64,000 bases of DNA, taken from Vicia villosa (Eukaryota > Streptophyta > Magnoliopsida > Fabales > Fabaceae). Location: positions 124,001 through 188,000 of the forward strand of contig NW_026705483.1 in the NCBI RefSeq assembly GCF_029867415.1. The letters run 5' to 3'. Under the pieces are notes generated by a model that saw only the letters and a list, made by a program, of their open reading frames with translations, did not search any database and was not told the DNA's origin. This document shows positions 2,901 to 52,716 of this stretch, in pieces (position 1 is the first letter of the stretch; each line of letters opens with the position of its first letter). The position numbers and the translations under genes were made by a program.

Positions 2901-2917
2901 TACAACACTAGGTTCCC

Positions 2918-3190: not shown

Positions 3191-3316
3191 TCTTATAAGC
3201 ATCCCCAATATCCAAATCAAATACCCTAGGAGATTAGACATTTATCATCTATATGATAGGAGTATCTCTTCTATATCATCACAAACAATCAATCAATCAA
3301 TCAACTTAACTTTTTT

Positions 3317-3487
3317 GCCACAAGGCTGTCTAATCAATCAAACCTTTTTGCCACCACACTAGCTGATTAATCAAAGTTTTTGTCACAAGGCTGACTTCAT
3401 TGAAACTTTTGCCACAAGGCTGGCTGATTAATCAAAACTTTTTGTCACAAGGCTGACTTCATTGAAAGTTTTTGCCACAAGGCTGGC
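3317..3487 (+). repeat. Array of six GCCA/GTCA hairpins in Ogre LTR
   Basis: In sense orientation the units read GCCA-CAAGGC-TGGC or GTCA-CAAGGC-TGAC, at 3317, 3350, 3382, 3411, 3444 and 3474. The last four pair perfectly and alternate between the C-G and T-A versions of the second base pair. The first two are degenerate. Spacers are A/T-rich and often contain TTTGATTAATC-like sequence. Confidence 0.8.
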
Positions 3488-5900: not shown

Positions 5901-8900
5901 ATTCACATTCACTCTCGATCCTGTTGATAACGATTCTGCCATTGCCAGTCATGACTTTGAAAATCCGATCTACCAAACTGAGGACGAAAGTGAGGAAGAT
6001 TGTGACGTACCTAGGGAACTTGCAAGGCTATTAGAGCAGGAAGACAAGACCATACAGCCACATGAAGAGCCAATTGAGGTTATCAACCTGGGCAATGACG
6101 AAGAAAAGAAAGAAGTCAAGATAGGGGCTGATTTAGAAGACAGTGTCAAGCAAAGACTGATTCAAATGTTACAAGACTATGTTGAGATATTCGCTTGGTC
6201 CTATGAAGATATGCCTGGTCTCGACACAGATATTGTGGTCCATCGCCTGCCAATCAAAGAAGGTAGCACTCCAGTTAAGCAGAAGCTGCGAAGAAGTAGG
6301 CCCGACATGTCCAAGAAGATTAAAGACGAGGTTGAGAAGCAATTCAACGCTGGTTTTCTAAAAGTTGTGAGTTATCCTCCATGGATAGCTAACATCGTGC
6401 CTGTACCTAAAAAAGACGGGAAAGTCAGAATGTGTGTAGATTACAGAGATCTAAATCGGGCAAGCCCCAAAGATGATTTCCCTTTACCTCACATCGATGT
6501 ACTGGTTGACAATACTGCACAATGCAAGGTATTTTCCTTTATGGACGGATTCTCAGGTTACAATCAGATCAAGATGGCGCCAGAAGACATGGAAAAGACA
6601 ACCTTCACAACACCCTAGGGAACCTTTTGTTACAAAGTGATGCCCTTTGGTTTAAAGAATGCAGGAGCAACGTATCAGCGTGCAATGGTAGCTCTGTTCC
6701 ATGATATGATTCATCAGGAAATAGAGATTTATGTGGATGATATGATTGTAAAGTCCAACACCGAAGAAGAACATCTGGGTCATCTGCACAAGCTATTTAA
6801 CAGACTCAAGAAATACAGATTGCGACTGAATCCGAACAAGTATACCTTTGGAGTAAGATCCGGTAAACTCTTAGGTTTCATTGTCAGTAGCAAGGGTATT
6901 GAAGTTGATCCTGCCAAGGTCAAAGCCATTCAAGAAATGCCCATACCCCGTACCGAGAAGCAAGTCAGAGGATTCTTGGGACGTCTGAACTACATCGCCA
7001 GTTTTATTGCCCATATGACTACTACTTGTGTGCCAATTTTCAAATTGTTGAAGAAAGATCAAGTAGAAAGATGGAACGACAAATGCCAATTAGCCTTTGA
7101 CAAGATCAAAGGATATCTTCAAAAACCACCAATCTTGTTACCACCAGTTGAAGGAAGACCTCTGATAATGTACCTAACAGTGTTAGAAGATTCAATGGGG
7201 TGTGTACTGGGGCAACATGACGAGTCTGGCCGAAAAGATCATGCAATCTACTATCTTAGCAAAAAGTTTACCGATTGTGAAACAAGATACTCACTGCTCG
7301 AGAAAACTTGCTGTGCCTTGGCATGGGCGGCTTGCCGACTAAGACAGTATATGCTAAACCATACCCCTTTGCTGATCTCCAAAATGGAACCTATCAAATA
7401 TGTGTTCGAAAAACTTGCTCTCTCTGGAAGAATAGCAAGATGGCAAATGATCTTAACAGAGTATGACATCCAATACACTTCGCAAAAGGCGATCAAGGGA
7501 AGTGTGGTAGCTGATCATCTGGCTCATCAAGCAGTGGATGATTATCAAGCATTGAACTTTGACTTCCCAGATGAAGACATTATGCTAGTTACTGACTACA
7601 AACAACCCGGACCGGAGGAAGGACCCGAGCCAGGGTCCCGATGGACTATGATTTTTGATGGAGCCTCTAATGCGCTTGGCAATGGCATCGGAGCTGTGAT
7701 CATTTCTCCTACAGGAGGACATACACCATTCACTGCCAGATTATGTTTCAACTACACTAACAATATAGCCGAGTATGAAGCATGTATTCTGGGTCTCAAA
7801 GCTGCAATCGATCTAAGAATCAAGTTCCTGGAGGTCTACGGAGACTCGGCCCTTGTAATTTATCAAGTTAAAGGGGAATGGGACATGAAGCACCCGAATC
7901 TAATTCCTGACAAAGAATATGTGCTGGGTTTGATTCCTTACTTTGAAGAAATCACTTTTGAACATATCCCGCGAGAAGAAAATCAACTGGCTGATGCCTT
8001 AGCTACCATGTCATCTATGTTCAGAGTCAGGTGGGATAATGAGGCGCCAATGATCATCATTTACAGACAGGATGAACCAGCCTATTGCAATGAGATTGAT
8101 ACCGAAGGAGTAGAAGAAAAACCATGGTTCCATGAAGTAAAAAGATATCTCGAAGCCCAGGAGTACCCTGAAGGGGCATCCATTAACGATAGAAAGTTTC
8201 TAAGAAGATTTGCTGCCAAATTCTTTTTAAGTAATGGAATCCTGTACAAGCGCAACCATGACTCGACTTTGCTTTGTTGTGTGAACAAGAAGGAAGCGGA
8301 ACAGATTATGGAAGATATACACGATGGTGCCTTTGGTACTCATTCAAGTGGACATACAATGGCTAAAAAAATCTTAAGAGCAGGTTATTATTGGTCTACC
8401 ATGGAGACAGACTGCCACCATCACTCCAGAACTTGCCACAAATGCCAGATATATGCCGACAAAGTACATGTACCTCCAATCCTATTAAACGTTCTGACAG
8501 CTCCTTGGCCTTTTGCAATGTGGGGTATTGATATGATTGGAGAAATCAAGCCTATTGCCTCCAACGGACATCGTTTTATCCTGGTCGCTATTGACTACTT
8601 CACAAAATGGGTAGAGGCAGCCTCGTTTGCTTCTGTCACCAAGAATGTTGTTGCCCGGTTTATCAAGCATAATCTCATTTGTCGGTATGGCATCCCTAAA
8701 AGGATCATCACAGACAATGTCACAAATTTAAATAACAGGATGGTTACCGAACTCTGCACGCAGTTCCAGATCAAACATCATAATTCATCCCCATATCGAC
8801 CAAAGATGAATGGCACCGTGGAAGCTGCCAACAAGAACATCAAGAAGATCATACAAAACATGACAGTAACCTACAAAGACTGGCATGAGATGTTACCTTT

Positions 8901-9372
8901 TGCTCTTCATGGTTATCGCACATCAGCGCGTACTTCAACAGGGGCAACTCCATTTTCCTTAGTCTATGGTATGGAGGCAGTTCTTCCAATTGAAATTCAG
9001 ATTCCTTCCCTAAGGATTATGAAAGAAGCCGATCTAGACGAAGACGATTGGATTCAGACTCGGTTGGACCAGATAAATTTGATTGATGAGAAGAGGCTTG
9101 CGGCTATTTGTCATGGCCAATTGTACCAGAAGCGTATGATCAAAGCCTTCAACAAGAAAGTCAGGAGTCAGGCATATCAAATTGGTGATTTGGTTGTAAA
9201 ACGCATCATCTTACCACAGGGTGACCCCAGGGGCAAGTGGACTCCCACTTATGAGGGACCATTTGTAATCAAGAAAGTATTCTCCGGCGGAGCCATGTTG
9301 CTTACCACTATGGATGGCGAGGATTTCCCACACCCTGTAAATGCGGACATAGTAAAAAAATACTTTGCTTAA
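5901..9372 (+). pseudogene. pol: E1 pol: reverse transcriptase, RNase H, second (archaeal-type) RNase H, integrase
   Basis: This exon copies the element RNA into DNA and inserts it. An acidic N-terminal leader is followed by RT with FSFMDGFSGYNQ (first catalytic Asp, about 6530-6570) and YVDDMI (about 6730). Next come the gypsy RNase H (YLTVLEDSMGCVLGQ, about 7170) and a second RNase H with IFDGASN (about 7653), EYEACILGL (about 7770) and GDSALVI, the dual-RNase H hallmark of the Tat lineage. The integrase has an HHCC zinc finger (about 8320-8460), MWGIDMIG (about 8520), TDN (about 8710) and the catalytic Glu in TVEAANK (about 8820). A TAG at 6616-6618 stands where B has Trp in PWGTF, so full-length translation is broken. 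The rest is open to 9372. TDN is followed by Val instead of the usual Gly next to a catalytic Asp. Confidence 0.92.
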
Positions 9373-9383
9373 AGAAAAACTCG

Positions 9384-9530
9384 CTAAGTTGAAAACCTGA
9401 AAGGGCGACTTAGGCAAAAATGAGCGTCTCGGTGGATTGAAAACCTGAAAGGGCGATCCAGGCAAAAATTAGAGACTAAAATATAATAATAATTATCTCG
9501 CTAGGCTGGAAACCTGAAAGGGCAGCCTAA
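9384..9530 (+). other. E1 trio of post-integrase hairpins (A4 bulge, GAAA cap)
   Basis: Twelve bases after the pol stop lie three 50-60 bp units. Stems are CTAAGTTG/CGACTTAG (9384-9391 with 9406-9413), TGGATTG/CGATCCA (9433-9439 with 9454-9460) and TAGGCTG/CAGCCTA (9502-9508 with 9523-9529). The 14-nt middle is AAAACCTGAAAGGG, with G for the first A in the third. It can form CCU-GAAA-GGG with the four A bulged. Each unit is followed by GGCAAAAA or GCAAAAG. Stems differ and loops are conserved, as expected of a folded RNA. Confidence 0.8.
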
Positions 9531-9540
9531 GCAAAAGTTA

Positions 9541-10860
9541 GGGAATAAAACATACGACTATGTCCCGTTTGGCTACCTACTCACCTTCAAGGTTCAACAC
9601 ATCAAAGGCACCAATCAGTCCAAACATTTTCTTCCAACAAGTGAGGGATGAGATACTCAAGGACAGATTGGCAATAGCAGAATTGAAACTTGACTGGATT
9701 GTTTTCACATAGCTATTTTCCTTTATAAGCACTTTTCAAAGTTTTATGACAAATTCCTACTACTAGGATTTTTTGTCCCCTTGTACTAATTAGCCTATTA
9801 TGGCTCTCTTTCAAAATCAATACAGTTCATGCTCAAAGTCAATGTTTTCACTTTTTCTGTTTTGAACGCGTAAACGTCCCAATGATAATTTTGAATGAAC
9901 ATATGCATTTGAATATGATTGATGTTTATAAGAAAAACAAGAATAGAATTCAGGTAATGTCCCAATCATCTGGACATCATCCCGAAACCAGCAACATGGG
10001 AATATCCCCCCACAGAGTAATCTTCAAGGAGTTATCCCCGGATAAGCAAGGCCCAATTAGTTCCCCAACAGAGATACGTTTCTCAGCAGAATCCTCAATG
10101 AGATCTTTCTCTCCAACAAAATGATTCGAGAAACCTTATTCCCCAGCAGGGCTGTTCAAGATCACTATCCCTAGAAGGTGTGATCCTCCACACCAAGGCT
10201 TGATCAAATAGTGCATCGGAGGATTACGCATCTTTGTTATTCCCAGTCACGGTGCATCAAAATCAGAACCTTCAAAGTTACCTTCATCCCCAAGCGGTAA
10301 TCAAAGACCCCTCAACAGAGCATCCTGGTCCGTAAGGAAGTTCCCCAGCTGAGTATACTCGAACAAGATAGCAAAGATCATCAACGGTCATAATGTCATC
10401 GTTTCCGAAAATAACAAGCAGGGATTTATTTTCCCAACCAGAAGTTTGATACGCTCTAAACTGCATAAGTCATGTCCATACATCATACATCATACGCATA
10501 TTCATACATAGCATATAATGTTTCATGACAAACACATACATAACATGCACGGTTCTCATTCAGGTTGAGAATCTCATCATATACATTACATACATCATGA
10601 CATTGCATGTCACTAACTTGGTTTTTCAGGTGGACGAATATCCTCAGCAAGTTATTCTCAATCACATGCAGTATTCTCCTGGGTTCTGTTCGGACGAGCA
10701 TTCCTCTCAGATATAATCAAACCAAAGATTCATTCTGAAGAGATCTCTCTTTCCAAACAACTTATCAACCCTAAACAAGCAAAGCAGATACGGTCTAATG
10801 GTGACTCATTCTGACGCTTCCAGACTATACCACAGTCGAATAAACAACTTTAAATCCTTC
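9541..10860 (+). other. E1 3' UTR, noncoding
   Basis: No credible gene is present. Four short tRNA-end-like motifs recur: TCCCCCCACAGAG (10005), TTCCCCAACAGAG (10061), TTCCCCAGCAGGG (10139) and TTCCCCAGCTGAG (10341). They resemble the complement of a Tat-type PBS. A CATA/CATAC-rich stretch lies at about 10470-10610. Confidence 0.6.
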
Positions 10861-11200
10861 AGATCTAAGTCGATACCTTGGACGGTTCCTTAATCATGTA
10901 CCTTCAGATCTAAGTCGATACGTTGGACGGTTCCTTAATGATCTACCTACAGATCTAAGTCGATACCTTGGACGGTTCCTAAATGATCTACCTCCAGATC
11001 TAAGTTGATACCTCAGACGGTTCCTTAAAGCAATCAATCTTCAAGATCTAAAAGCAGACACCTCAGACGGTTCCATAACGATCAACATTCAAAATCTAAA
11101 GCGGAAACTTTGGACAGTTCTGTAACGATCAACCTCCAAGATTTAAAACGGTAACCTCGGACGGTTCCGTAACGGTCAACACAGAGATTTAAATCCTTCA
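10861..11200 (+). repeat. E1 45-48 bp tandem repeat in 3' UTR
   Basis: Units begin at 10861, 10906, 10951, 10996, 11044, 11091, 11139 and 11185 (partial). The early units read AGATCTAAGTCGATACC then TTGGACGGTTCC; later units are more diverged. Most units can pair ACC with GGT around a six-base TTGGAC-like loop. In the 11091 unit this becomes AACT/AGTT and in the 11139 unit AACC/GGTT. Confidence 0.85.
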
Positions 11201-11436
11201 TCAAGATATAATCAATGGATTCATTCTGATGAACAAACCATCAACACATTCACTAGATGGCATCTGAAAGCCCGTCTCAGGTAATGTTTTGATCCGCTAA
11301 CGATATTTCTCAAGCCGCATTCAATGCAAATTCCAACATTACTTCCGGTGGAGGTAAGTGCAAATTTTAGGGCATCTAAATATTCAATCATCTTCTACCT
11401 TCAGATTCCAATCGGTCTCTTCAGGTTTAAGAAGAT

Positions 11437-11450
11437 TGAATAGGGGCAAC
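11437..11450 (+). other. E1 polypurine tract
   Basis: GAATAGGGGCAAC ends directly at the TGTTGTACCCC LTR start. Its upstream context, AAGAAGATTGAATAGGGGCA, is shared with A, B and C. Confidence 0.8.
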
Positions 11451-11698
11451 TGTTGTACCCCAAAATTTGCCCGCATCTTTTTTCAAAGAGAAGGTAACGG
11501 ACTTCTGTCTAAAATTTGGAGTTTCATATAATCTTGGATTTTATTTCATAAATATCCTGATTTTATGAATACTCAGTTTTTTAGAATATTCATATACGGT
11601 ATTTTGGTTTGCTGTTGAATTTATTGTTACACAAACGCCAAGTACTGTTTATCACTTCACACATGCTGTTTATTTGAGATTTATTTGCAGATAAATAG
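11451..11698 (+). repeat. E1 3' LTR, first 248 bp
   Basis: It starts TGTTGTACCCCAAAATTTG, similar to the sense start of the LTRs of C (TGTCATACCCCAAAATTTG) and A/B. It stops at 11698, where the Sirevirus LTR begins. The remainder of this LTR is not found in the window. Confidence 0.75.
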
Positions 11699-26886: not shown

Positions 26887-28180
26887 GTAATAAGGCCCTG
26901 ATTGTCACATGGTCTTCATGATTGATTTTCTAGAGAGGAAAAGTCTTTTGAAAGAGACATAAGCTGCTCGGATGATGAGGCTATTGCTTATTGTGTATTT
27001 TTCACGACTCTATTTGGGGAATCGGAATTTGAATATTTGGTAAAGACAGGGTCCTATCCAAAAATGAATTGGAAAGAAACGGTCAAACAAGACTTTGCAC
27101 CCAATGAGGAATGAACTCGAATGGGGATTTTCTCCTTTGTTTTGAGAGGAGAAACTAAAGTAACCTTCTTCCACGAGGAATGATCTCAGTGGGGAACTGG
27201 AGAAAGAAGATGTTCTTTCTGCTTATGGGTGACAACCTACTTGGAGAGATGACACGCCCGTACATGTTTTTTTTTCTTTTTTCTTTTTTCTTTTTTGAGG
27301 ATAGATATATCCTAAACAAGTGATTTTGAAACAATCATTGAAAAATGCAAGAATGCATAAATGATGCAAATATGTATGAATGATGAATGTTATGAATGTT
27401 GCATGCATGTTGACGATACTGACAAATAAAGAAGTATATACTGGAGATGGACCGACGTCGCAATACAACCAGATACTTGGCAAATGTTCTTCAACATGGT
27501 GCAGATAACACGGGTGATGAATGGTGCTGCATGCTTTAGACTTCTCTGGGGAAAATGAGCATCTTTTCTTACTGAGATTGAAAAACTTCTTTACTGGGGA
27601 TGAAAGAACTTCTCTACCGCGAGGGGCAATTGGTTTAGGAATTCTTTCCTGGGATAAGAATACCGTTGTCTCATCATCTCTTTTGAGGAAAAGAACAGTT
27701 CTGAAGGATGATCTTTAGTTCATCCTATGGAGATAGCTGCTGATGTTCCTTCTGTTGTTCACAACTCAAAGGAAAGTTTCGCTTTTATTTTGAAAAGAAA
27801 GGAAAAGTAAATTCATTTAAAACTTTTTTTTTCTTTTTCTTTCAAAAGTGAATAACACAATTAAAGCGTCATTTTGCAAGCTAAAAGAAATTAGAGATTG
27901 CAAACAAGTGGGCACCAGGCTAAAATTTATTTAATAGGATGGTAATCAGCTAAAGGCATGATTCCATAGAGTATTTACAAAAGTTGGAAATGGTAAATAT
28001 GCGGAAAAGGCTACGTTGAAAGCAATAACCACTATTCTCCCTAACAACTTTGAGTTCCAACTGTGCTTGTTGCTTCAGATTGGCGATGATTTGATTGAAG
28101 ATCCTTTGATGAAAAAGACTCCTTAGGTGATGAAGTACGGACTGTTGTAGTTACTTTGTCATAAATCCTTAATTTTTGCC
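26887..28180 (-). other. Ogre A 3' UTR, remaining part
   Basis: No gene is seen. There is a poly-T/CTTTT stretch at 27266-27296 and several words like CTGGGGAT or GTGGGGAA (27197, 27594) resembling partial PBS complements. The counterpart in B is 39206-40440. Confidence 0.6.
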
Positions 28181-28326
28181 TAGATTGCCCTTTCACGTTT
28201 TGAATCTACCAGGATAAATTTTTTCTATTTATTGTCTCTAATTTTTTCCTGGACCGCCCTTTCGGGTTTTCAGTCCACCGAGACGCTCATTTTTGCCTAA
28301 GTCGCCCTTTGCGAGTTTTCGACTTA
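28181..28326 (-). other. Ogre A trio of post-integrase hairpins
   Basis: Sense order from the integrase stop: TAAGTCG/CGACTTA (28298-28304 with 28320-28326), TGGACTG/CGGTCCA (28250-28256 with 28271-28277) and TAGATT/AATCTA (28181-28186 with 28203-28208). Sense middles are AAAACTCGCAAAGGG, AAAACCCGAAAGGG and AAAACGTGAAAGGG. The second gives a CCC-GAAA-GGG cap. Confidence 0.82.
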
Positions 28327-28348
28327 CCGAGCTGTTCTTTTGTCTTTT

Positions 28349-39215: not shown

Positions 39216-40460
39216 AATAAGGCCCTGATTGTCAAATGGTCTTCATGATTGATTTCCTTAAGAGGAAAAAGCTTTTGAAAGAGACATAAGCTGCTCGGAT
39301 AATGAGGCTATTGCTTATTGTCTGTTTTTCACGACTCTATTTGGGGAATCGGAATTTGAATCTCTAGTAAAGACAGGGTTCTATCCATGAATGAATTGGA
39401 AAGAAACAGTCAAACAAGACTTTGTACCCAATGAGGAATGAACTCAACTGGGGATTTTCTCCTTTGTTTTGAGAGGAGAAAACTAAAGCAACCTTCTTCC
39501 ACGAGGAATGATCTCAGTGGGGAACTGGAGAAACAAGATGTTCTTTCTGCTTATGGGTGACAACCTACTGGAGAGATGACACGCCCATACCTGTTTCTTT
39601 ATTTTTTTTTCTTTCTTTTTTTTTTGGGATAGATATATCCTGAACAAATGATTTCGAAGCAAACATTGAAAAATGCAAGAATGCATAAATGATGCAAATA
39701 TGTATGAATGATGAATGTCATGAATGTAGCATGCATACTGACGAAATTGACGGACAAAGAAGTGTATACTGGAGACGGACCGACGTTGCAATACAACCAG
39801 ATACTTGGCAAATGTTCTTCAACACGGTGCAGATAATACAGTTGATGAATGGTGTTGCATGCTTTAAACTTCTCTGAGGAAGATAAGCATCTTTTCTTAT
39901 TGAGATGGAAGAACTTCTTCACTGGAGATAGAAAATCTTCGTCACTGGGGATAAAAGACCTTCTTCACTGGGGATAGAAGAGCTTTTCCTATCATAATCT
40001 TTGATTCATCCTATGGAGATAGCTGTTGATGTTCCTTCGGTTGTTCACCACTCAAAGGAAAGCTTCGCTTTTATTTTGAAAAAAAAAAGTAAATTTATTT
40101 AAAACTTTTTTCTCTTTTTTTTTTCTCAAACGTGAATAACACAATTAAAGCGTCATTTTGCAAACTAGAAGAAATCAAGAATTGCAAACAAATGGGCACA
40201 AGGCTCAAATTTATTTAATAGGATGGTAATCAGCTAAAGGCGTGATTCCATGGAGTATTTACAAAAGTTGGAAATGGTAATTATGCGGAAAAGGCTACAT
40301 TGAAAGCAATAACCACTATTCACCCTAACAACTTTGAGTTCCAACTGTGCTTGTTGCTTCAGATTGGCGATGATTTGATTGTAGATCCTTTGATGAAAAA
40401 GACTCTTTAGGTGATGAAGTACGAACTGATGCAGTTACTTTGTCATGAATCCCTAATTTT
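39216..40460 (-). other. Ogre B 3' UTR, remaining part
   Basis: No gene is seen. T-rich stretches lie at about 39598-39630 and 40080-40135. CACTGGGGATA occurs twice at about 39930-39980, resembling a partial PBS complement. Confidence 0.6.
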
Positions 40461-40464
40461 TGCC

Positions 40465-40609
40465 TAGATTGCCCTTTCAGGTTTTCAATCTACCAGGATG
40501 AATTTTTCTGTTTATTGTCTCTAATTTTTGCCTGGACCGCCCTTTCAGGTTTTCAGCCCACCGAGACGCTCATTTTTGCCTAAGTCGCCCTTTGCGGGTT
40601 TTCGACTTA
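40465..40609 (-). other. Ogre B trio of post-integrase hairpins
   Basis: In sense order the stems are TAAGTCG/CGACTTA (40581-40587 with 40603-40609), TGGGCTG/CGGTCCA (40533-40539 with 40554-40560) and TAGATTG/CAATCTA (40465-40471 with 40486-40492). The middles are AAAACCCGCAAAGGG, AAAACCTGAAAGGG and AAAACCTGAAAGGG. The second stem includes two G-U pairs that are valid only on the sense strand. Confidence 0.85.
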
Positions 40610-40631
40610 CCGAGCTGTTCTTTTGTATTTT

Positions 40632-40877: not shown

Positions 40878-43848
40878 TGTAGCAACCTGCCTAAAAATTA
40901 TAACTTAGAGAGTCACCACCTATTCTGAATGGCGAATAGGAAACCCTACGCAGTATAGAGATCGGGGTAAGATATTATATTCAGGTCGAGGGAAGGTGTT
41001 AGGCACCCTCGACCCTTTCCTAAAGGCTAACATTTCAAAGATAAAGGTTTATGGCAAGGTTTATAGCTAAGGAAGTGAATAGGGGAAAAATTGAGATTTT
41101 AGGGAAGGGGACTCGCCTTGTTGCCAAGTGCCTACGTATCTCCTTATGGAGAATCAGAGTCAACGTAGTTCGGGACACAGGATTGTACGCCTTAGAGTTG
41201 AATTGAATGTATTTGAATTTGTTTTGAAGTTGTTTTGAAATGCGAATGTTCGAAGGTATTTTGAGTTACCTTATCGTAGTTGTGACCATCGCAGTGTTGA
41301 AACACCGTAGTATCGTGGTTTAGTGTATTTTGAGTGTTTTAGGATTTGGGCGTACAACCCTGATTTGATTTAGCACTATTAACCGCGACGATCAATAGAT
41401 TCAATCGCCATAGTTAACAGATTTGAAGTTGTATCGTTACCAATTTTAATCAATTGATTTGATTATTACTGATAACGAATTATGGTATTTTTTAATAATT
41501 ATGAATTGATTTGCATTGTTACCCCTCGCAATCGATTGATTCGATTAAAAGAATAACGAATTTGAAGTTAGAAAAAAAGGATTAATCATCACAACTAATA
41601 AGATAGTTGCAACCATTTAATCGAATATAATTGAATTGCATTTTAATTAAATAGAATTTTAATTAAGATTATTGTTGACCATAGCGATTAATCGATTTAA
41701 TCGGCACGAACAACAAATTGACATTTTAATATAAATATCACATAATAATTTATTTATAAAAAATAATTATTATACAATTAATATATATTAAAAGGTATTT
41801 TAATTAAAACAAAATAAATAATTAAAATTATTTAAACTAATAGGAATAGGATTCAGTGTGGTTATTATCAGGGTGTATGATATGAACAATCAGATCCTGA
41901 GTGTTAGATCTAAGAGGACGAGGATCCTATGGCTAATTGCTGAGGGTATATGGTGGGCCATCTAGCTGCGCTCGTACTGAATCAAGCAATGCTTCTCAAT
42001 AATAAAAAGAAATTAACATTGGAGGAGGGACTCGAACCCACGCCCTCCCCCTCACAAGCGTATAGTCTAACCACCACACCAAACGCGTCCATTTTCTTAC
42101 TAAACGCGCGCATCACATAATATGTGAAACCTAAAAAAAGGAATGAAACAAGAGCGCCAACATTTGAATAGACCAATGACCTATCACCACGTTACATTCT
42201 TCTTCCCCAGAACCTGCAAATTTCTGAAACGATAGCTACGGTTTAGCTACGAATTCGCTACGAATTCGTTTCGTGGTCTACGCACCTGAAAAATAACGAA
42301 CATGCCCTGCATGTACATAAATGTTTCGCACCTGCACCAAACCCTTCGTTTTCACCATACCAATTCAACTATGTATTCAATTTGGCTTAATTTTAACCCT
42401 AATTAAAAACCCCAAATTGAAACCCTAAAACTCAAAACGGCCTCCAATGGTGGAACTTATTCTAAGCGCGTAAACTCCAAACAAACGACCCAGAAACAAT
42501 CACAGCATCATAACTAAGCAAAATATATCATTAAAAACATGTAAGAACGCATGAATTGCTCTAATCGATCTAAGTTTAAGAGCCACTTACTTTGACAAAT
42601 TGGAGGATATTCTGGGGTTGCTGATGCTATGCAAATATCCAATCACCTTCAGAATGCCTCAAGGAAGCTTTTGTACTCTTTAAATCTTGTTAAAACCTTC
42701 TAATTCTTACAAACCGATCTTGAGTTTTCTTGTTGAATTTTTGTTCTTATGCGTGTGCCTCTGAGCAGAAAATCCCCGACCCCTATTCCACTGGCTTGTG
42801 TTGAGTACTTATAGAAGGACATAATTAGGTTAAAAAAACAAAGCCCAAAGTCCTTGAATCCAATCTTTCCAAGTTTGTGGAAATTGATTTTTTCTTTGAA
42901 TAGAAACTTTTTATTTTTTTGCCCCATCTTATGTCAATCTTTTCCAACCATTTATGCACGAAAATTATACTATATTTTGACATCAAGGCTGATTGGATTT
43001 GATCTATATGCATCTTGTAACAAAATATTTGATTTTTTTCCTTTAATTAAATTATTTTAAATCATTTAAAAATGAAATAAAATTATATATAAATTAAATA
43101 AAAGGTAAAATTCGTGGCATATGGTTTGGATAACTTATGGGCCAAGTTCAAGTCATAAAAGTATGGGCCCATTTGCAAAGTTTCTCAATTTGAACCTTCT
43201 TTTTTCATATTTGGTCCTCCAAAATTACCCAACTTTGATCAATCATATCTCACTCAATTTTTAAGCTATGAGGGAGTTCTAAGACTTTTTGGAAACCTCA
43301 GGATGTCCTCTATAAGCCACTTTGGAACATATTTTCCATTTGGAGCTTTTATCTTGATCATATCCTCTTTGCCAAAAAACTGCTTTTGAAGGATGCTTGA
43401 AAATGACCTATAATCTTTTGCATCATACCTCTCAAATGAAGCATTTCTAGCCCTGGCTTGTGAGAGACAAAGTTGTAGGGAATCCAATTTCCTTCAAAAT
43501 AGGCTTTGAGTGGGGAATTTTTGAGGTTCCATGTGAAAGTTATGCCCAGTCAAAGTTGGGTTGACTTTTCCTAAGAAACCCTAATTTGAACCTTTTTGTA
43601 TTTGTTCATCTCTGAGTTTCTATTAATGGAATCATGATCAATCTTTTATCAAATGATGGTTATGCACCTCTGTACCTGATGTTTGACCAATGATCATAGG
43701 TTTGAATCATGCTTTGATCGTAGTTGACCTTCAGGTTTGAATCAGTTGATTGTGGATCTTGGGATTGTTTGAGCAAAGCTTTGGGATTGAGTCTTGAACT
43801 TTGAATCATTGTACATGGAATATGGAAGGCAAATTTTGGGGTATGACA
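40878..43848 (-). repeat. Element C 3' LTR, 2971 bp
   Basis: Plus-strand edges are TGTAGCAACC (40878) and GGGTATGACA (43848). In sense it starts TGTCATACCCCAAAATTTG. It is AT-rich in the middle (41700-41850). No gene is credited. Confidence 0.95.
42021..42090 (-). promoter_or_regulatory. tRNA-like segment in element C 3' LTR
   Basis: In sense, GTGGTGGTTAGAC (A-box-like) is followed by GGGTTCGAGTCCC (B-box, complement of 42027-42039). The acceptor arms do not pair, so this is not a tRNA gene. The second LTR has the same element at 50889-50958. Confidence 0.5.
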
Positions 43849-43880
43849 GCTGCCCCTGTTCAATCTTCTTGAACCTGAAG
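43849..43880 (-). other. Element C polypurine tract
   Basis: In sense, GATTGAACAGGGGCAGC abuts the LTR start at 43848, preceded by TTCAAGAA. Confidence 0.8.
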
Positions 43881-44039
43881 AGGTAGAAGATGATTGGACA
43901 CTGAAATGCCCTGAAATTTGCTTGCGTAGGGAAGGAGTTCTGTGGGAGATGGGCTTATAGATGCCATCCAGTTGTTTGACAAGATACTTGTCTAAAGCAT
44001 ATGCTTTTCAGACCTGGATCATTTGATTGTATCTGAGGA

Positions 44040-45960
44040 GAGAGAAATTAATGTCTTACATAAGACTACCTGAAGAGATTCCTGAATAGGGTATATCGAG
44101 GGTTGATGCGAAGAAGCTTAGGCTTTGAACAAAGCTTAGGGAGAATGTCTTGGAGAAGACTACTGAGGAGTTCTTTTAAAAGAACTAAGCGTGTCTTAGA
44201 AAAGAATGGATAAGCATTTAAGAAGGCTACCTAGAGAGGCATGATACGTCTTAAATAAGACTTACCTAGAAAGGTTCTTTAAAAGATATGAAACCTGGAG
44301 AGGTTTTTTTTGAAAGGATATGGAATGTCCTAAACAGGACTATCTAGACAGGTTGTGGTACGTCTTAAACAGGACTCACCTGGAAAGGCCCTTAGATAGG
44401 ATACGGGATATCTCAAACAAGACTTACCTAGAGAGGTTCCTATAAAGGGAACGATACGTTTTAAACAAAACTATCTAGAAAGATTCCTATAAAGGGAACG
44501 ATACGTTTTAAACAAAACTATCTAGAAAGATTCCTATAAAGAACATGAAACGTTTTAAACAAAACTACCTAGAAAGATTCCTATAAAGGACATAAAACGT
44601 TTTAAACAAAACTACCTAGAAAGATTCCTAAAAAGGGCATGATACGTTTTAAACAAAACTACCTCGAAAGGTTCCTATAAAGGATCGTGAGACGTTTTAG
44701 ACAAAACTACCTAGAAAGGTTCCTATAAAGGACATGAAATGTTTTAAACAAAACTACCTAGAAAGATTCCTATAAAGGACATGGAGCGTCTTAGACAAGA
44801 TTACCTAGCAAGGATAGGATACATCTTAAACAAGATTGCCTAGAAAGGTTAGGATACGTCTTAAACAAGACTGCTTGGGAAGGTTGATAATCGTTTTGGA
44901 TAAGATTACCTGGAAAGGTAAGAAATTGTTTGATCGCTTTTGGATTGCCTTTGAAGAAAGACTTGGAATGAGGTATTAGAATTGTATATGTTGAGATTTA
45001 ATCGTTGATACGATCGTATTTGCGCTGTGATTGGATGATAACATCCTTTTGATTATGAAGTGACCTGAAAAGGCAGCGTTAGTTGTATGCGATGTCGTGA
45101 TGCATGGATCATGTAATGAGATTCTCAAAATAAATGAGAATTATGCATGTATGTCGATCCCACACTGCGGGGCGTAAGTAGCACAGGCGTGGGAAGATCA
45201 ATTACGCAACAATGCTCTTTGTGTTTGAATTCTTGAAAGATATGCCCCTGGTCAATAGGATTCTTGATTGTAAGTGTTGATTTTAATGTGAAGCAGATGC
45301 TTTTCAGAATGAGTCCTGCGTTTCGGTTGCGCCCTACGGACAGTGATTTTGCTGAGCACTCAGAATGAGATGATGTCTTCTATAAGATTACCTGAAGAGG
45401 TCCTTGGAAAGAATGGGAAATTGTCTTAAACAAGACTGCGCTTTAAACAAGGCTCGAAGGGATATGTTTGTGCAGATGGTCAAAAATATTCCTAGAGAGG
45501 ATAAAGACTGTTTTAAGGAATGTGGGGCTTTAAACAAAACTTAGGAAAAGACATCTTGAAGAAGATCACCCTAGAAAGGATGGTGAACCGTCTTAGAGAA
45601 GACTCTGTACTTTAAACAAAGTTTGACAAGGTTCTTGAAAGCGTAAGAGAAGTTTGAATATGTCTTAAAAGACTAACTGAAAAAAGTTAAGAGATGTCTT
45701 ACAGAAGACTACCTAGAAACGGTTCTTGGAAGGGAATATGTCTTAGAGAAGACTGTTTGAAAGGGTTTGAAAATAGAGAGGATAAGAAAATGGGTCTTTA
45801 AAAAGACTATCTGAAACAGGCTCCTAGAAAGGGTAAAAAGTATTTGAACATGTCTTAAAGAAGACTATATGGACAGATTGAGAAATATCCTATACAGGTT
45901 CCTGGAAAGGATGTGGGAGTGGCATTGACACCATCTGCTACTGAGTGACCTTTGTAACGT
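44040..45960 (-). repeat. Element C long tandem array of hairpin triplets (47-bp unit)
   Basis: A regular 47-bp unit (for example 44481-44527 and 44528 onward) decays towards both ends and resumes at 45370-45960. Each unit holds up to three short inverted repeats: ATCT-AGAA-AGAT or ACCT-AGAA-AGGT, TCCT-ATAA-AGGA, and GTTTT-AAAC-AAAAC. Versions of the last include GTCCT/AGGAC (44327-44340) and GTCTT/AAGAC (44858-44871). About 45000-45370 is a less regular interruption. It is noncoding. Confidence 0.85.
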
Positions 45961-46700
45961 GCCCCCAGGTAATGGGCTTGCCCCATGGGCTATTCAGCGT
46001 CCTAGAGAGATTCCAATGGATCTTGATTAGATTGCCCCATGTAAATGGGATAATGACGAGTTATGCCGTGCGTACACATTAGCCATCCCAGTCATGCGTA
46101 AGGGATGTTTCTTCTTTTGACAAGTTTTTAAAGCTACTTCATCAGTCAGTAGGATTTTTTAGCCATTAGCCATGCCCCATGCAACTTCTCCCTGATGTTT
46201 AAACATTTGAATCCACATAGACAAGTGTACTTTGTAATGAAATTCATAAGATGCGAATGCATATGTCTGTCTTGAAAGTTTAAAAACATTTTTTTTGAAT
46301 AAAATAAAGTTTTTTTTTTTGTAAGAAAGTGATATCAACTCAAAAGTTATAGTAGACCTTAAGGAGTCGGGATACCTTTGGTAACGGTATGCTTTCGAAC
46401 TAACCATGCTTCAGTTAGGACTTTTAAGGGTTGTAACGTGGCCTGGTTCACGGTTTAAAGAAACAAAGGATAGAGGCTCAAAGTTTATTTGTACCCATCC
46501 CCATCTTCGTGATGTTCTCCAGTCCTATGCTCAGTTGACTATGCGTTTAGGCTCCAAAAGACTTTGGGAATTATGACATTGGCATTTATGATGGTTCAAA
46601 AACCAAAGGTTTATCTGCAAAGGTTGTCATTCTCCTTTTTTGTAATTTTTCCTTTTGTCGAAGGTACATAGTAACCTTTTTTCGACTTTGTTATCCCTAA
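45961..46700 (-). other. Element C 3' UTR, unique part
   Basis: No gene. It includes A/T homopolymers at about 46290-46322. Words such as GCCCCATG recur (45981, 46032, 46176). Confidence 0.5.
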
Positions 46701-46707
46701 CTTTTTC

Positions 46708-46785
46708 CTGAACTGTTCGTTTTAAAACTACAGTCAGCGGGATGCCCCAATTTTGCCTAAGTCTCCTTAATAAGTTTTGACTTAG
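46708..46785 (-). other. Element C post-integrase hairpins (degenerate)
   Basis: The first sense hairpin is CTAAGTC/GACTTAG (46757-46763 with 46779-46785) with a 15-nt middle starting AAAAC. The second is CTGACTG against CTGAACTG with one bulged A (46708-46715 with 46731-46737). A third is not clear. Confidence 0.65.
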
Positions 46786-46799
46786 CAGGCCCTTGCATT

Positions 46800-47335
46800 G
46801 CTTTCTTTTTCTTTGCGGACATTGACTGCCGGATTTAATGATGACGGGGAACCATCGGTGATTATGTTCAAAGGAACAACTTGGAATAATTAAGTTAACT
46901 GAGCAACTACCCTACCCCAGGTTATGTATTAAGGGTTTTATTTTATATGAAGGAAAACTCCTACTTCTTTAGGCTCAAAGGGGTTGACAAGGGATTAACA
47001 TCCTTATATCTCCGTTATTTAGGAATTGAAACAATGCCTGTACATCGTCAACACGGTCTGTTCGAAAGCGTAGTGTATGAAATTATGGTATCGTTTTCGT
47101 CATTCTCCCTCAAAAGGTGTACAGCTTTAACGAGAGTTGAATATCACAAAGAAGAAAACCAAGTAAAAACACAGTTTTAAATATAGTGATAACACTAGGA
47201 ATGAATCAAGACAAACGTAAGCAATGCATTAATGATTGTTGTAAAGTACATAGCATATGTCATAAGACTAATGTTTAAACAAACGGAAAGAAATTGCGAA
47301 TGAAAACAAAACTAATGATCTAAGAAATCCTCCTT
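46800..47335 (-). other. Element C pol deletion region
   Basis: Between the gag stop and the hairpins there are only about 540 bp. The sense frame near 46800-46870 (TDGSPSSLNPAVNVRKEK) weakly resembles the integrase tail DGDELPHPVNADAVKKY of A and B. That would make it the scar of a large pro-pol deletion; the resemblance is weak. The frame at 46947-47180 on the plus strand has no recognisable features. Confidence 0.35.
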
Positions 47336-48853
47336 CTAGCCACCTATGGCACTGGACTTGCGAGGATCTTCGAACTCAATGAGCCCTTCTTCAATCAAAT
47401 CTTGGATCTTGTGCTTCAACGGCCCACAATCCTCTGTATCATGACCAGGACTATCTGAATGATAAGCGCACCTAGCATGATGCTTGTACCCGGGAGCGGG
47501 GTTAGCTGGAGCTGAGTATGGAGGCAGCAGAGTTATCAAGTTCTGACTGAGCAGATGTTGCAGAGCTTGAGACAGCGGCATGTGCAATGGGGTAAACGAT
47601 CGCTTCGGCTTGGACCTCCAGGGGCGTTGGCCACCCTGTTGTTTTTGCTGATCCTTCTGTTGTAGTGTTGGTGTCTGATTAACCAGGATCGCTCCAACAG
47701 TGCTGGGTTCCTTTTTTCCGTCATATGACTTCTTTGTGTGATAGGAACCTGAGGGTGCCCCTTGTATCTTCCCATTCTTGATCCCATTTTCAATTCTCTC
47801 ACTAATGACTACCAAGTCCGAGAACCCTGAAGATATGCTTCCGACCATCTTGTCGTAGTATGGTCCTTGCAAAGTGCTCATAAATATGTCCACCAGTTCT
47901 TTTTCCATCAAGGGAGGTTGGACTCGAGAAGCCATTTCCCTCCACCTTTGGGCATACTCCTTGAATGATTCATCATTCTTCTGCGACATATTCTGTAATT
48001 GCATTCGATTGGGTGCCATGTCCAAGTTGTACTTGTAATGCTTTAAGAAGGTGCTAGCCAGATCATTCCAGCTTCGGACAGAGGATTTCTCTAATTGCAT
48101 GTACCAGTCAATAGACGCTCCGCTTAAGCTTTCTTGAAAGAAATGTATCATTAGCTTTTGATCGTGGGCGTAGGCAGCCATTTTTCGCACATACATGCGC
48201 AAGTGATTCCTCGGACATGTGAGTCCTTTGTATTTCTCGAAGTCGGGAATCTTGAATTTGCGAGGGATAGTCAAGTCTGAGACCAAACTCATTTCGAAGG
48301 CATCCACATCAAAGACATCGTATCCTTCTACCACTTTTAGTCTCTCCTCCAGCGCCTTGATTTGTTCACTGTCCTTGGAGTCTTCCTCAGAGTTAGGAAT
48401 AGACTGTTGTGTCTGAGGTGCTTGGTCTGTGTTGTCCACCTCTTGCACTCCGTATTGTAGCTCCAGGTAATCATCATCCTTAGGGACATTGTTAGCAGGA
48501 ATGCGAACTGTGCGGGTTGCCCCTTTGGTTTGTGGAGGAGGGAGAAATCCTTCTTGAGAGGCCTCTCCTTTTTCTTGGAATTGGATAGCTCTCCTCACAG
48601 ATCGGACTTGAGGTCTGTCCTTAGCAGGGCCAAAGCCTGGAACAAATCCTAGCAGCGGGTTTTCGTCGTTGGGGATCTCATCCTGAACCAGGATATCCCT
48701 AGACTGAACCTCTTTTGCTTTTTCTTTCTCGTCCTTGAGGGCCTTCATGAATTCTAACATCTGAGCCATACCTCCTTTAACCTCTTCCATACTAACCTTT
48801 AGTTGATCCACGTCTTCACGAAGGGCGGTTTGATTCTTTTCTAGCTGCTCCAT
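47336..48853 (-). CDS. gag: Element C Gag, 505 aa
   Basis: The capsid/nucleocapsid precursor that packages element RNA. An N-terminal coiled coil (MEQLEKNQTALREDVDQLK, residues 1-50) is followed by an acidic linker. The Tat/Ogre Gag core starts FKIPDFEKYKG (about 205) and includes HFFQESLSGASIDWY and FKEYAQRWREMA (about 300-310). The C-terminal knuckle is CAYHSDSPGHDTEDC (about 464-478), a Cys-His-His-Cys variant. It is uninterrupted, unlike the homologous gag of Ogre B, where the Trp of QRWRE is a stop. It ends GG* where Ogre gag would run on into protease. An intact Gag with no enzymes suggests selection for self-packaging or simply youth. Confidence 0.9.
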   Translation of the reverse strand: MEQLEKNQTALREDVDQLKVSMEEVKGGMAQMLEFMKALKDEKEKAKEVQSRDILVQDEIPNDENPLLGFVPGFGPAKDRPQVRSVRRAIQFQEKGEASQEGFLPPPQTKGATRTVRIPANNVPKDDDYLELQYGVQEVDNTDQAPQTQQSIPNSEEDSKDSEQIKALEERLKVVEGYDVFDVDAFEMSLVSDLTIPRKFKIPDFEKYKGLTCPRNHLRMYVRKMAAYAHDQKLMIHFFQESLSGASIDWYMQLEKSSVRSWNDLASTFLKHYKYNLDMAPNRMQLQNMSQKNDESFKEYAQRWREMASRVQPPLMEKELVDIFMSTLQGPYYDKMVGSISSGFSDLVVISERIENGIKNGKIQGAPSGSYHTKKSYDGKKEPSTVGAILVNQTPTLQQKDQQKQQGGQRPWRSKPKRSFTPLHMPLSQALQHLLSQNLITLLPPYSAPANPAPGYKHHARCAYHSDSPGHDTEDCGPLKHKIQDLIEEGLIEFEDPRKSSAIGG

Positions 48854-49725
48854 CGATTTCTTTTGCTGAAATCTGGTTTGATAAGACGGTCGGGATGTTA
48901 GGTTATCCTTCCCAATGGTTCCTTGCTCTTGAGATAGAAGAGGAATCTTCTCTTAATGCCATGAAAATGATGTGTATGCCATGCATGATATGTATGATAT
49001 CTTTTTTCTTCCTTTTTTTTTTGAATAAAATACGATGCAAGAATGCCCATGATGTATGATGAATGGAAAAAGAAATAATAAAAAAAAATAATGATCAACA
49101 CATATATATACATATATCACATAATCACATAAGTTCATAGGTTCGACGTAGCGGCTCTTGGGAGCCAACCTTTTTATAGGGGGGTTCTAGAAGGTCCCAT
49201 GGGGTCGTTCGTAGCCTCCGAGACTTTTTGTCTCTTTGGGTTTTAGAACAACTCATTTTATCCATGAGGTTCGAATTATTGGGGTAGGTTCTCGGAGAGA
49301 TCAGCCAAGTATCCAGTTCTGCCCTCAATAAAGTCAAGCCTCGTTTTGGACATTTCCGAATACTCAACCCACTCCGAGTGGAGTTATCAATGAGACTCGT
49401 AGGCGATTCATGCTCCCCTATTGATCTCAAAGTTAACTCCCACACTTAGGGTTTTAACATTACATAATATGTCAGCAGTGCATATAAAAATATGACAATT
49501 AGGCAATTAAATATAAATATATTAACATAAACAATTAAATATAAACATATTATAAACAATTAAATATTTTTAGATAAAAAACAAATAAAAATTTTTTTTT
49601 TAAAAAAAATAAAATAATTACAAACCCTAAAAAAGGCGAATTAGCCAAACCCTAAAAAGTTGTCAAACCTAAACCCTGCCAAAACCTAAAACCTATAGGA
49701 GCATAGTATTCACCATTTAAGTGTT
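48854..49725 (-). other. Element C leader between PBS and gag
   Basis: Noncoding, with A/T runs at about 49010-49090 and 49540-49620 and a CCCTAAA-like stretch (49621-49690). ORF1, present in Ogre B at this position, is absent. Confidence 0.65.
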
Positions 49726-49743
49726 TCCTCAGCAGAGTCGCCA
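49726..49743 (-). other. Element C primer binding site
   Basis: Sense TGGCGACTCTGCTGAGGA, two bases from the LTR end. It matches the Ogre B PBS except for three positions. Ogre-type PBSs are assigned to tRNA-Arg in the literature (from memory). Confidence 0.85.
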
Positions 49744-49745
49744 GC

Positions 49746-52716
49746 TGTAGCAACCTGCCTAAAAATTATAACTTAGAGAGTCGCCACCTATTCTGAAGGG
49801 CGAATAGGAAACCCTACGCAGTATAGAGATCGGGGTAAGATACTATATTCAGGTCGAGGGAAGGTGTTAGGCACCCTCGACCCTTTCCTAAAGGCTAACA
49901 TTTCAAAGATAAAGGTTTATGGCAAGGTTTATAGCTAAGGAAGTGAATAGGGGAAAAATTGAGATTTTAGGGAGGGGGACTCGCCTTGTTGCCAAGTGCC
50001 TACGTATCTCCTTATGGAGAATCAGATTCAACGTAGTTCGGGACACAGGATTGTACGCCTTAGAGTTGAATTGAATGTATTTGAATTTGTTTTGAAGTTG
50101 TTTTGAAATGCGAATGTTCGAAGGTATTTTGAGTTACCTTATCGTAGTTGTGAACATCGCAGTGTTGAAACACCGTAGTATCGTGGTTTAGTGTATTTTG
50201 AGTGTTTTAGGATTTGGGCGTACAACCCTGATTTGATTTAGCACTATTAACCGCGACGATCAATAGATTCAATCGCCATAGTTAACAGATTTGAAGTTGT
50301 ATCGTTACCAATTTTAATCAATTGATTTGATTATTACTGATAACGAATTATGGTATTTTTTAATAATTATGAATTGATTTGCATTGTTACCCCTCGCAAT
50401 CGATTGATTCGATTAAAAGAATAACGAATTTGAAGTTAGAAAAAAAGGATTAATCATCACAACTAATAAGATAGTTGCAACCATTTAATCGAATATAATT
50501 GAATTGCATTTTAATTAAATAGAATTTTAATTAAGATTATTGTTGACCATAGCGATTAATCGATTTAATCGGCACGAACAACAAATTGACATTTTAATAT
50601 AAATATCACATAATAATTTATTTATAAAAAATAATTATTATACAATTAATATATATTAAAAGGTATTTTAATTAAAACAAAATAAATAATTAAAATTATT
50701 TAAACTAATAGGAATAGGATTCAGTGTGGTTATTATCAGGGTGTATGATATGAACAATCAGATCCTGAGTGTTAGATCTAAGAGGACGAGGATCCTATGG
50801 CTAATAGCTGAGGGTATATGGTGGGCCATCTAGCTGCGCTCGTACTGAATCAAGCAATGCTTCTCAATAATAAAAAGAAATTAACGTTGGAGGAGGGACT
50901 CGAACCCACGCCCTCCCCCTCACAAGCGTATAGTCTAACCACCACACCAAACGCGTCCATTTGCTTACTAAACGCGCGCATCACATAATATGTGAAACCT
51001 AAAAAAAGGAATGAAACAAGAGCGCCAACATTTGAATATACCAATGACCTATCGCCACGTTACCTTCTTCTTCCCCAAAACCTGCAAATTTCTGAAACGA
51101 TAGCTACGGTTTAGCTACGAATTCGCTACGAATTCGTTTCGTGGTCTACGCACCTGAAAAATAACGAACACGCCCTGCATGTACATAAACGTTTCGCACC
51201 TGCACCAAACCCTTCGTTTTCACCATACCAATTCAACTATGTATTCAATTTGGCTTAATTTTAACCCTAATTAAAAACCCCAAATTGAAACCCTAAAACT
51301 CAAAACGGCCTCCAATGGTGGAACTTATTCTAAGCGCGTAAACTCCAAACAAACGACCCAGAAACAATCACAGCATCATAACTAAGCAAAATATATCATT
51401 AAAAACATGTAAGAACGAATTAATTGCTCTAATCGATCTAAGTTTAAGAGCCACTTACTTTGAAAAATTGGAGGATATTCTGGGGTTGCTGATGCTATGC
51501 AAATATCCAATCACCTTCAGAATGCCTCAAGGAAGCTTTTGTACTCTTTAAATCTTGTTAAAACCTTCTAATTCTTACAAACCGATCTTGAGTTTTCTTG
51601 TTGAATTTTTGTTCTTATGCGTGTGCCTCTGAGCAGAAAATCCCCGACCCCTATTCCACTGGCTTGTGTTGAGTACTTATAGAAGGACATAATTAGGTTA
51701 AAAAAACAAAGCCCAAAGTCCTTGAATCCAATCTTTCCAAGTTTGTGGAAATTGATTTTTTCTTTGAATAGAAACTTTTTATTTTTTTGCCCCATCTTAT
51801 GTCAATCTTTTCCAACCATTTATGCACGAAAATTATACTATATTTTGACATCAATGCTGATTGGATTTGATCTATATGCATCTTGTAACAAAATATTTGA
51901 TTTTTTTCCTTTAATTAAATTATTTTAAATCATTTAAAAATGAAATAAAATTATATATAAATTAAATAAAAGGTAAAATTCGTGGCATATGGTTTGGATA
52001 ACTTATGGGTCAAGTTCAAGTCATAAAAGTATGGGCCCATTTGCAAAGTTTCTCAATTTGAACCTTCTTTTTTCATATTTGGTCCTCCAAAATTACCCAA
52101 CTTTGATCAATCATATCTCACTCAATTTTAAAGCTATGAGGGATTTCTAAGACTTTTTGGAAACCTCAGGATGTCCTCTATAAGCCACTTTGGAACATAT
52201 TTTCCATTTGGAGCTTTTATCTTGATCATATCCTCTTTGCCAAAAAACTGCTTTTGAAGGATGCTTGAAAATGACCTATAATCTTTTGCATAATACCTCT
52301 CAAATGAAGCATTTCTAGCCCTGGCTTGTGAGAGACAAAGTTGTAAGGAATCCAATTTCCTTCAAAATAGGCTTTGAGTGGGGAATTTTTGAGGTTCCAT
52401 GTGAAAGTTATGCCCAGTCAAAGTTGGGTTGACTTTTCCTAAGAAACCCTAATTTGAACCTTTTTGTATTTGTTCATCTCTGAGTTTCTATTAATGGAAT
52501 CATGATCAATCTTTGATCAAATGATGGTTATGCGCCTCTGTACCTGATGTTTGACCAATGATCATAGGTTTGAATCATGCTTTGATCGTAGTTGACCTTC
52601 AGGTTTGAATCAATTGATTGTGGATCTTGGGATTGTTTGAGCAAAGCTTTGGGATTGAATCTTGAACTTTGAATCATTGTACATGGAATATGGAAGGCAA
52701 ATTTTGGGGTATGACA
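49746..52716 (-). repeat. Element C 5' LTR, 2971 bp
   Basis: Identical in length and boundaries to 40878-43848. About 28 substitutions were counted by eye, many of them transitions. It contains the same tRNA-like segment at 50889-50958. Confidence 0.95.

Follow-up and report, generated by a model that had tools for sequence, protein, structure and literature searches.

A tandem array of structured hairpins behind pol in Ogre-type retrotransposons of Vicia villosa, a probable RNA control signal

Retroelements of the window

The window analysed here is a 64,000-nt stretch of Vicia villosa DNA (assembly GCF_029867415.1, contig NW_026705483.1, positions 124,001 to 188,000, forward strand). It carries three Ogre-type LTR retrotransposons, E1, Ogre A and Ogre B, and a young gag-only LTR element nested inside Ogre B. 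A first-pass annotation, made from the letters alone, had reported three hairpins directly behind the pol stop codon in each of E1, Ogre A and Ogre B, and all nine were found at the positions given there. Each hairpin is extended by an outer stem that was absent from that first reading (e.g. GTCTC/GAGAC or ATCCT/GGGAT); with the outer stems, the corrected arrays span 9378-9545 in E1, 28165-28333 in Ogre A and 40449-40616 in Ogre B. The features are as follows, with "model" denoting a covariance model trained on 21 common units.

6619..9372, plus strand: 3' part of E1 pol, with RT (part), RNase H, second RNase H and integrase (Pfam)
9370-9372, plus strand: E1 pol stop codon, TAA
9378..9426, plus strand: E1 unit 1, short-linker type, 3-bp outer stem CTC/GAG; model E 1.7e-10 for 9382-9424, not a training sequence
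9426..9476, plus strand: E1 unit 2, outer stem GTCTC/GAGAC, adjoining unit 1; model E 7e-19, training sequence
9495..9545, plus strand: E1 unit 3, outer stem TCTC/GGGA; model E 6.7e-16, training sequence
11420..11471, plus strand: E1 polypurine tract (PPT) and 3' LTR tip, alike in Ogre A, Ogre B and the gag-only element
28165..28215, minus strand: Ogre A unit 3, damaged tip; found by the model, training sequence
28234..28284, minus strand: Ogre A unit 2; found by the model, training sequence
28284..28333, minus strand: Ogre A unit 1; model E 6.5e-8 for 28286-28329
40449..40499, minus strand: Ogre B unit 3; found by the model, training sequence
40517..40567, minus strand: Ogre B unit 2; found by the model, training sequence
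40567..40616, minus strand: Ogre B unit 1; model E 1.3e-9 for 40569-40612
40878..52719, minus strand: young gag-only LTR element nested in Ogre B; LTRs 40878-43851 and 49746-52719, 99.06% identical
43830..43878, minus strand: PPT and LTR tip of the gag-only element (element positions 8842-8890)
46693..46743, minus strand: gag-only unit b, different tip, outer stem ATCCC/GGGAT, adjoining unit a; model E 5.9e-6, not in the training set
46744..46791, minus strand: gag-only unit a, different tip; model E 0.029, not in the training set
47336..48952, minus strand: gag ORF of the gag-only element (Retrotrans_gag), with the zinc-knuckle-like motif CAYHSDSPGHDTEDC

In the E1 protein, Pfam places RT_RNaseH at 180-282, RVT_3 at 355-464 and rve at 631-728, so that the second RNase H (aRH) sits between the RNase H and the integrase, as in the Ogre lineage (Ty3/gypsy, Tat). 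The order RT, RNase H, second RNase H, integrase is described for both Ogre and Retand (PMC6317226) and therefore cannot separate the two. Retand LTRs are given as 315-1,194 bp (PMC11963269), a range exceeded by Ogre A, with LTR sequence from a tip near 26290 down to 21266, and by Ogre B, with LTR sequence from near 38615 down to 33911, ~5 kb in both. As to the two-ORF organisation (gag-pro and pol) with an intron, E1 and Ogre B are decayed copies with multiple ORFs. E1 and Ogre A are alike in DNA from pol to the third hairpin, up to 9544, and the likeness of E1 to Ogre B ends at that point too. The 3' UTR of E1 ahead of the LTR is ~2 kb long (stop at 9372, PPT and LTR tip near 11450), and the array, with units to 9545, lies between the last ORF and the 3' LTR.

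Three further observations concern the elements themselves. The 3' region of E1 contains 45-50-nt tandem repeats (10856-11191, plus strand) like those described for Ogre 3' regions. Upstream of E1, an LTR-like stretch (1366-4167, plus strand) is up to 95% identical to the Ogre B LTR; because E1 pol is only ~70% identical to that of Ogre A and B, and no primer-binding site (PBS) is visible behind the stretch, the left end of E1 looks recombinant or nested. Ogre-like plant polyprotein pieces (proteins P0042 and P0044) were labelled Salmonella enterica in one protein source, which is probably due to plant contamination of assemblies.

Architecture of the hairpin unit

The genome searched was the 2.03-Gb assembly containing the window. 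A one-hairpin pattern (GAAAACCNGAAAGGGCGNNYNAGGCAAAAA, at most three mismatches) gave 28,699 matches (14,256 + 14,443), and the reversed control gave none. Units were parsed in 57 distinct loci (L001-L050 and L082-L090, minus L014 and L016, which duplicate the elements of L013 and L015) and in E1, Ogre A and Ogre B. L001-L030 were the first matches on one contig, L031-L050 were chosen for less common stems, and L081-L090 for a changed inner pair 1.

Read from the 5' end, a unit consists of an outer stem, G[G/C], a 7-bp stem, A4, a 3-bp stem, GAAA, the closing strands, GGCAAAA(R)TTA or a shorter linker, and the closing strand of the outer stem. In the commonest form, an outer stem of 3-5 bp and the 7-bp inner stem thus enclose an asymmetric internal loop, with G[G/C] on its 5' side and GGCAAAA plus (R)UUA or a shorter tail on its 3' side, while an A4 bulge, the 3-bp stem and the GAAA cap sit on top. 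Almost no variation is seen in A4, GGCAAAA, the GAAA loop and the first G on the 5' side (75 rows, one of them a false parse). The stems themselves vary. The outer stem of unit 1 is GCTC/GAGC, CCC/GGG or, in the L083 family, ACCC/GGGT; that of unit 2 is GTCTC/GAGAC in many lineages, ATCCC/GGGAT in the L031 family and GTCCT/GGGAC in L013; and that of unit 3 is ATCCT/AGGAT, ATCCT/GGGAT or ATCCC/GGGAT. In the L007 family the apical stem, too, changes in step, from CCC/GGG to CTC/GAG. Units 1 and 2 of an array adjoin, as do the last two in four-unit arrays.

Pairing is well kept throughout. Among 152 parsed units, all seven inner pairs are present in 136, six in 15 and five in one; contiguous outer pairs, counted from the inside, number five in 71 units, four in 52, three in 22 and fewer in seven. 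At least four outer pairs form in 83 of the 90 units with the long TTA linker (0.92), compared with 0.66 when the 3' strands are shuffled.

In the window, the first-pass annotation had given all nine hairpins a common middle, AAAACCTGAAAGGGCGA. Eight are matched at up to three mismatches (0.30 expected), whereas the ninth, hairpin 1 of Ogre A (AAAACTCGCAAAGGG), needs more. The GAAA cap is present in seven of the nine; in Ogre A and Ogre B, hairpin 1 has GCAAA instead. Hairpin 3 of Ogre A is damaged, with AAAACGTGAAAGGG and a C-C in the inner stem.

Covariation, strand bias and folding

The paired changes that had first suggested an RNA structure were read correctly: hairpin 2 is TGGATTG/CGATCCA in E1 and TGGACTG/CGGTCCA in Ogre A, and hairpin 3 is TAGGCTG/CAGCCTA in E1 and TAGATTG/CAATCTA in Ogre B. 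Among 32 chosen units, 98.1% of 320 cells are paired, as against 88.9% after shuffling, with 49 double-change cells (17.6 in shuffles) spread over seven of ten pairs. For 21 long-linker units with the outer stem, the corresponding values are 95.6% against 87.9% and 40 against 14.3, with double changes in eight of 15 pairs, and an unguided RNAalifold run on these 21 returns the identical 15 pairs.

Covariation was then judged against a tree-based null that is R-scape-like but is not R-scape: parsimony substitutions were re-dealt along a FastTree tree of the units in 400 simulations, and the APC-corrected G was scored for 1,275 column pairs, with 15 proposed pairs tested. In the cleaned set of 74 distinct units, from which L081 (a duplicate of L022) and a falsely parsed unit in L076 had been dropped, the top six of the 1,275 column pairs are all proposed pairs (outer2, inner2, inner3, inner4, outer4 and inner1). 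Four of the 15 tests reach E<0.05, namely outer2 (8.8e-5), inner2 (2.6e-4), inner3 (0.0013) and inner4 (0.016), while outer4 (0.075) and inner1 (0.087) miss it in this set. Across all 1,275 pairs, only outer2 (0.0075) and inner2 (0.022) do so. A run with one doubtful row extra gave the same top six, with outer4 at E 0.017, and in the first run, on 57 rows, inner5 took the place of inner1. The data come from one genome, the units of one array are paralogues whose differences supply part of the signal, and units with other tips (U1, U2, A-rich and gag-only) lie outside these tests.

Prospective searches gave a mixed outcome. Asking for an inner pair 1 whose 3' letter is not A yielded 259 genome matches and none in the reversed control; among the first 100 listed, 54 had C-G, 22 a T-G wobble and 24 no pair at that position, and 52 of the 54 C-G matches carry CAAG-type stems of one family, the other two belonging to other unit types. 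For inner pair 3 with a 3' purine there were 28 matches, none of which was paired at that position.

It had also been claimed that G-U pairs occur only in the sense orientation. The bias is strong but not absolute: among 1,110 cells of the 74 distinct units, 106 are GT/TG and 17 AC/CA, an excess that points to the sense RNA. Single-sequence stability is modest, with z -2.65 for the E1 region and z -2.53 to +0.63 for the nine hairpins alone; hairpin 3 of Ogre A folds no better than shuffles (z +0.63), and the lowest-energy fold computed for one copy with four units mispairs one of them. The case for structure is built on covariation and conservation and not on folding energy.

Lineages and position behind pol

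Arrays of one to four units were found in eight pol lineages, at 68-80% nucleotide identity, and in one further family, the four-unit L083 family, which is added on its hairpins. Within the E1 group there are sub-branches at 90-94% identity; WB and L003, which have interrupted upstream sequence and identities of 41-60%, do not enter into the 68-80% range. The array lies at most 160 nt behind the pol C-terminus in 51 of 51 elements (L001-L050 minus duplicates, plus the three of the window), these loci having been collected by their hairpins and not by pol. In ten representatives of the eight lineages, the first GGCAAA/GGAAAA linker is 25-53 nt behind the pol stop, and the first stem must therefore begin within ~20 nt of it. 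Stop-codon read-through was excluded, as further stops follow in all three frames in all ten representatives.

In the eight pairs of representatives in which pol and hairpins aligned separately and the collinear hairpin block was at least 100 nt long, this block is 82.7-88.2% identical and pol 69.0-74.3%, a comparison in which BLAST blocks favour conserved parts. One further alignment of 106 nt, between different units, has 73.6% identity. Taken with the covariation above the tree null and the sense wobble bias, the greater likeness of the hairpin blocks than of the adjoining pol gives good support to the conserved RNA structure that the first-pass annotation proposed. Outside this genome, viral contigs yielded no relatives by two unit patterns, the E1 integrase or a 16-row unit alignment, and prokaryotic genome contigs yielded none by the 16-row alignment.

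Units with other tips

The A4/GAAA middle, first taken to be fixed, is common and not general, since other families and the gag-only element bear other tips. The arrays of the L031 and L083 families have four units, of which units 1 and 2 lack the A4/GAAA tip but retain an outer stem and a GGCAAAA-type linker. The first of these reads CCC GC TAGGT-CGACGT-ACCTA GGCAAAAATAA GGG and the second ATCCC GG CAAACC-AAAAG-GGTTTG GGCAAAAATTA GGGAT, with CGAACC/GGTTCG in the second unit of several L083-family copies. When 17 of the 90 loci were submitted to a search with the covariance model, both other-tip units were recovered in all eight four-unit loci submitted (E 5.5e-9 to 0.014). In L013 and the L004 family, the array opens, just behind the stop, with CCTGATC/GATCAGG or CCTGAT/ATCAGG around an A-rich loop. 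The model found this stem in none of five loci (L004, L010, L013, L045 and L046), for which reason it stands as a by-eye assignment.

A gag-only element with the same units

The nested gag-only element has no pol ORF of at least 200 aa, and its Gag is 29-34% identical to that of Ogre B. The model has 11 matches below E 0.1 in the window, nine of them 3' of pol and two 3' of this gag, and the next best has E 1.3. The two gag-only units begin ~540 nt behind the gag stop. In 27 of 30 gag-only copies, the window's own being an exception, the tip of unit a is AAAA-CCT-ATTA-AGG, which keeps the A4 and the 3-bp apical stem with a different loop. A first look at the genome gave 1,873 candidates for the gag-only hairpin region, and the 40 that were scored, the window's own included, are 95-100% identical. 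The region folds no better than shuffles (z -0.53).

When the gag-only element was compared by blastn with 50 loci and the remainder of the window, it aligned in three places only: in the hairpins, at 72-75% identity to L047 and L031; in the PPT with the LTR tip, at 74% to E1 and 84% to both Ogre A and Ogre B; and in a block of 95 nt, at 75-77% to L034 and E1. A PBS of one type (TGGCGACTC...) was seen by eye in the gag-only element and in Ogre B. The ~95-nt block (10538-10631, plus strand; 45063-45154, minus strand) is common to E1, several related loci, two L083-family loci and the gag-only element. It ends in a branch-point-like CTAAC and the 3' splice-site-like TTTTCAGGT, and so hints at an unrecognised intron in the 3' UTR.

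Could the hairpins be without RNA function, as a short inverted repeat that was duplicated and spread by element copying, or as a DNA cruciform? The units are indeed related tandem repeats, and their individual folds are mostly only modestly stable. This explanation is nevertheless very improbable given the covariation above the tree null, the wobble bias towards the sense strand, hairpin blocks more alike than pol, and the retention of units by a gag-only element whose DNA otherwise shows little similarity.

A broader proposal, which we hold to be nearly as probable as its opposite, is that the arrays represent a new modular family of retroelement RNAs. Its core would be the G[G/C] / GGCAAAA(R)UUA loop between covarying stems, the tip and the copy number (1-4) being free to vary, and the gag-only element would be a parasite that keeps this core together with the sites for RT and integrase and uses the Ogre machinery in trans.

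Possible functions of the array

The element's RNA probably carries the hairpin array as a control signal. That this signal acts in cis on the genomic RNA is suggested by the gag-only element, whose DNA aligns with that of Ogre elements nowhere but in the hairpins, the PPT and LTR tip, and the 95-nt block. As to what such a signal in the full-length Ogre transcript would do, our first choice, made tentatively and somewhat short of probable, is Gag-mediated packaging. The near-invariant loops would serve as protein-binding sites, several units would allow multivalent binding, the binding protein would be Gag through its nucleocapsid zinc knuckle, and the array would thereby mark genomic RNA for loading into virus-like particles. 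Packaging is favoured because the gag-only element, without a pol ORF, still needs its RNA packaged, and its Gag has a zinc-knuckle-like motif. What counts against it is that the packaging and dimerisation sequences of Ty1, Ty3 and HIV-1 are placed at the structured 5' end (PMC11381356), whereas all units of the window are 3' of pol or gag and none is in a 5' leader. Moreover, the array alone could not single out unspliced genomes, since spliced Ogre mRNA would carry it too.

Two other readings rank just below packaging and are nearly as good. The position of the first stem, within ~20 nt of the pol stop in the ten representatives, and the ~2-kb 3' UTR of E1 would suit an element that shields a transcript with a long 3' UTR from nonsense-mediated decay (NMD) or deadenylation, in the manner of the Rous sarcoma virus (RSV) RNA stability element (RSE). 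By this analogy an insulator or stability element is conceivable but, on balance, unlikely, as the gag-only units stand ~540 nt from the gag stop. The minimal RSE, of 155 nt, directly follows a stop codon and precedes a long 3' region (PMC2925335); it sits behind gag, whereas the Ogre array sits behind pol and is made of tandem modular units.

The place of the array between the last ORF and the 3' LTR invites a comparison with nuclear export elements. Mason-Pfizer monkey virus has its constitutive transport element (CTE) in this very place, and the RNA transport elements of rodent IAP and MusD are likewise cis elements between the last ORF and the 3' LTR. Like the array, these elements have internal loops between stems, but they are not known to resemble it in sequence. 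By analogy, the array may let intron-containing Ogre RNA leave the nucleus unspliced, which we regard as about equally unlikely as the insulator. The Ogre array consists of one to four separate hairpins, and the export route in plants is said to be TREX and not TAP/NXF1 (PMC12786077), so that the CTE mechanism could not transfer unchanged; according to the same 2025 review, RNA export of plant LTR retrotransposons has not been studied directly. In addition, the gag-only element keeps its units despite having no pol ORF, and thus no need to export an RNA with a pol intron.

The spacer between ORF and 3' LTR is also where the ENE of Arabidopsis Evade, a plant LTR retrotransposon, is located (PMC12501189), and there the poly(A) tail is captured in a stabilising triple helix. 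An ENE needs U-rich internal loops (PMC12501189), whereas the loops of the common Ogre unit are rich in A and G on the sense strand and never have more than two U in a row. The standard form of an ENE fails already on this count, and stabilisation of this kind is the least probable of all the explanations considered.

Returning to packaging, there is a likeness in shape to gammaretroviruses, whose double-hairpin packaging signal consists of tandem hairpins with GNRA-type caps and exposed guanosines in the 5' leader. The Ogre array also has tandem hairpins with GNRA-type caps and exposed guanosines, but in the 3' UTR.

A separate observation concerns the LTRs. A tandem repeat containing TTTTTGYCACAAGGCTG, which is complementary to the hairpin segment GGCAAAAA, occurs at 3313-3511 (plus strand) and in the LTRs of Ogre A and B. 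The motif TTTTTGYC is present in 4-5 copies in each of the four Ogre-type LTR stretches tested (0.06-0.48 expected), and neither LTR of the gag-only element has any. Long-range pairing of GGCAAAAA with these repeats may be considered as a lead only, the copies all being within one tandem repeat.

Place among described elements

Three regions (E1 9301-9700, the gag-only region and the L031 array) were scanned against the 4,227 families of Rfam 15 without a match. The E1 region gave only MIR398 on the opposite strand, whose 14.7 bits (E 1.5) fall short of the cut-off of 55, and for the other two no model reached E<=1. Tandem repeats and antisense ORFs have been described between pol and the 3' LTR of Ogre and Retand elements, the same region as that of the array (PMC3305785, PMC11963269). 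The features reported there are minisatellites or antisense ORFs, and the word "hairpin" is absent from the main texts of these two papers. The array was not found described in the literature searched, which did not extend to supplements and subscription papers. By kind it belongs with the cis-acting structured RNA elements of LTR retroelements, as one for which we found neither an Rfam match nor a published description.

Implications

Ogre elements make up a large share of many legume genomes, and the export, protection and packaging of plant LTR-retrotransposon RNA are poorly known. With its compact size, defined secondary structure, naturally occurring compensatory mutants and a tip-swap variant found in nature, the array provides a ready experimental handle on these steps. 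The array also offers a possible explanation for how non-autonomous elements are mobilised.
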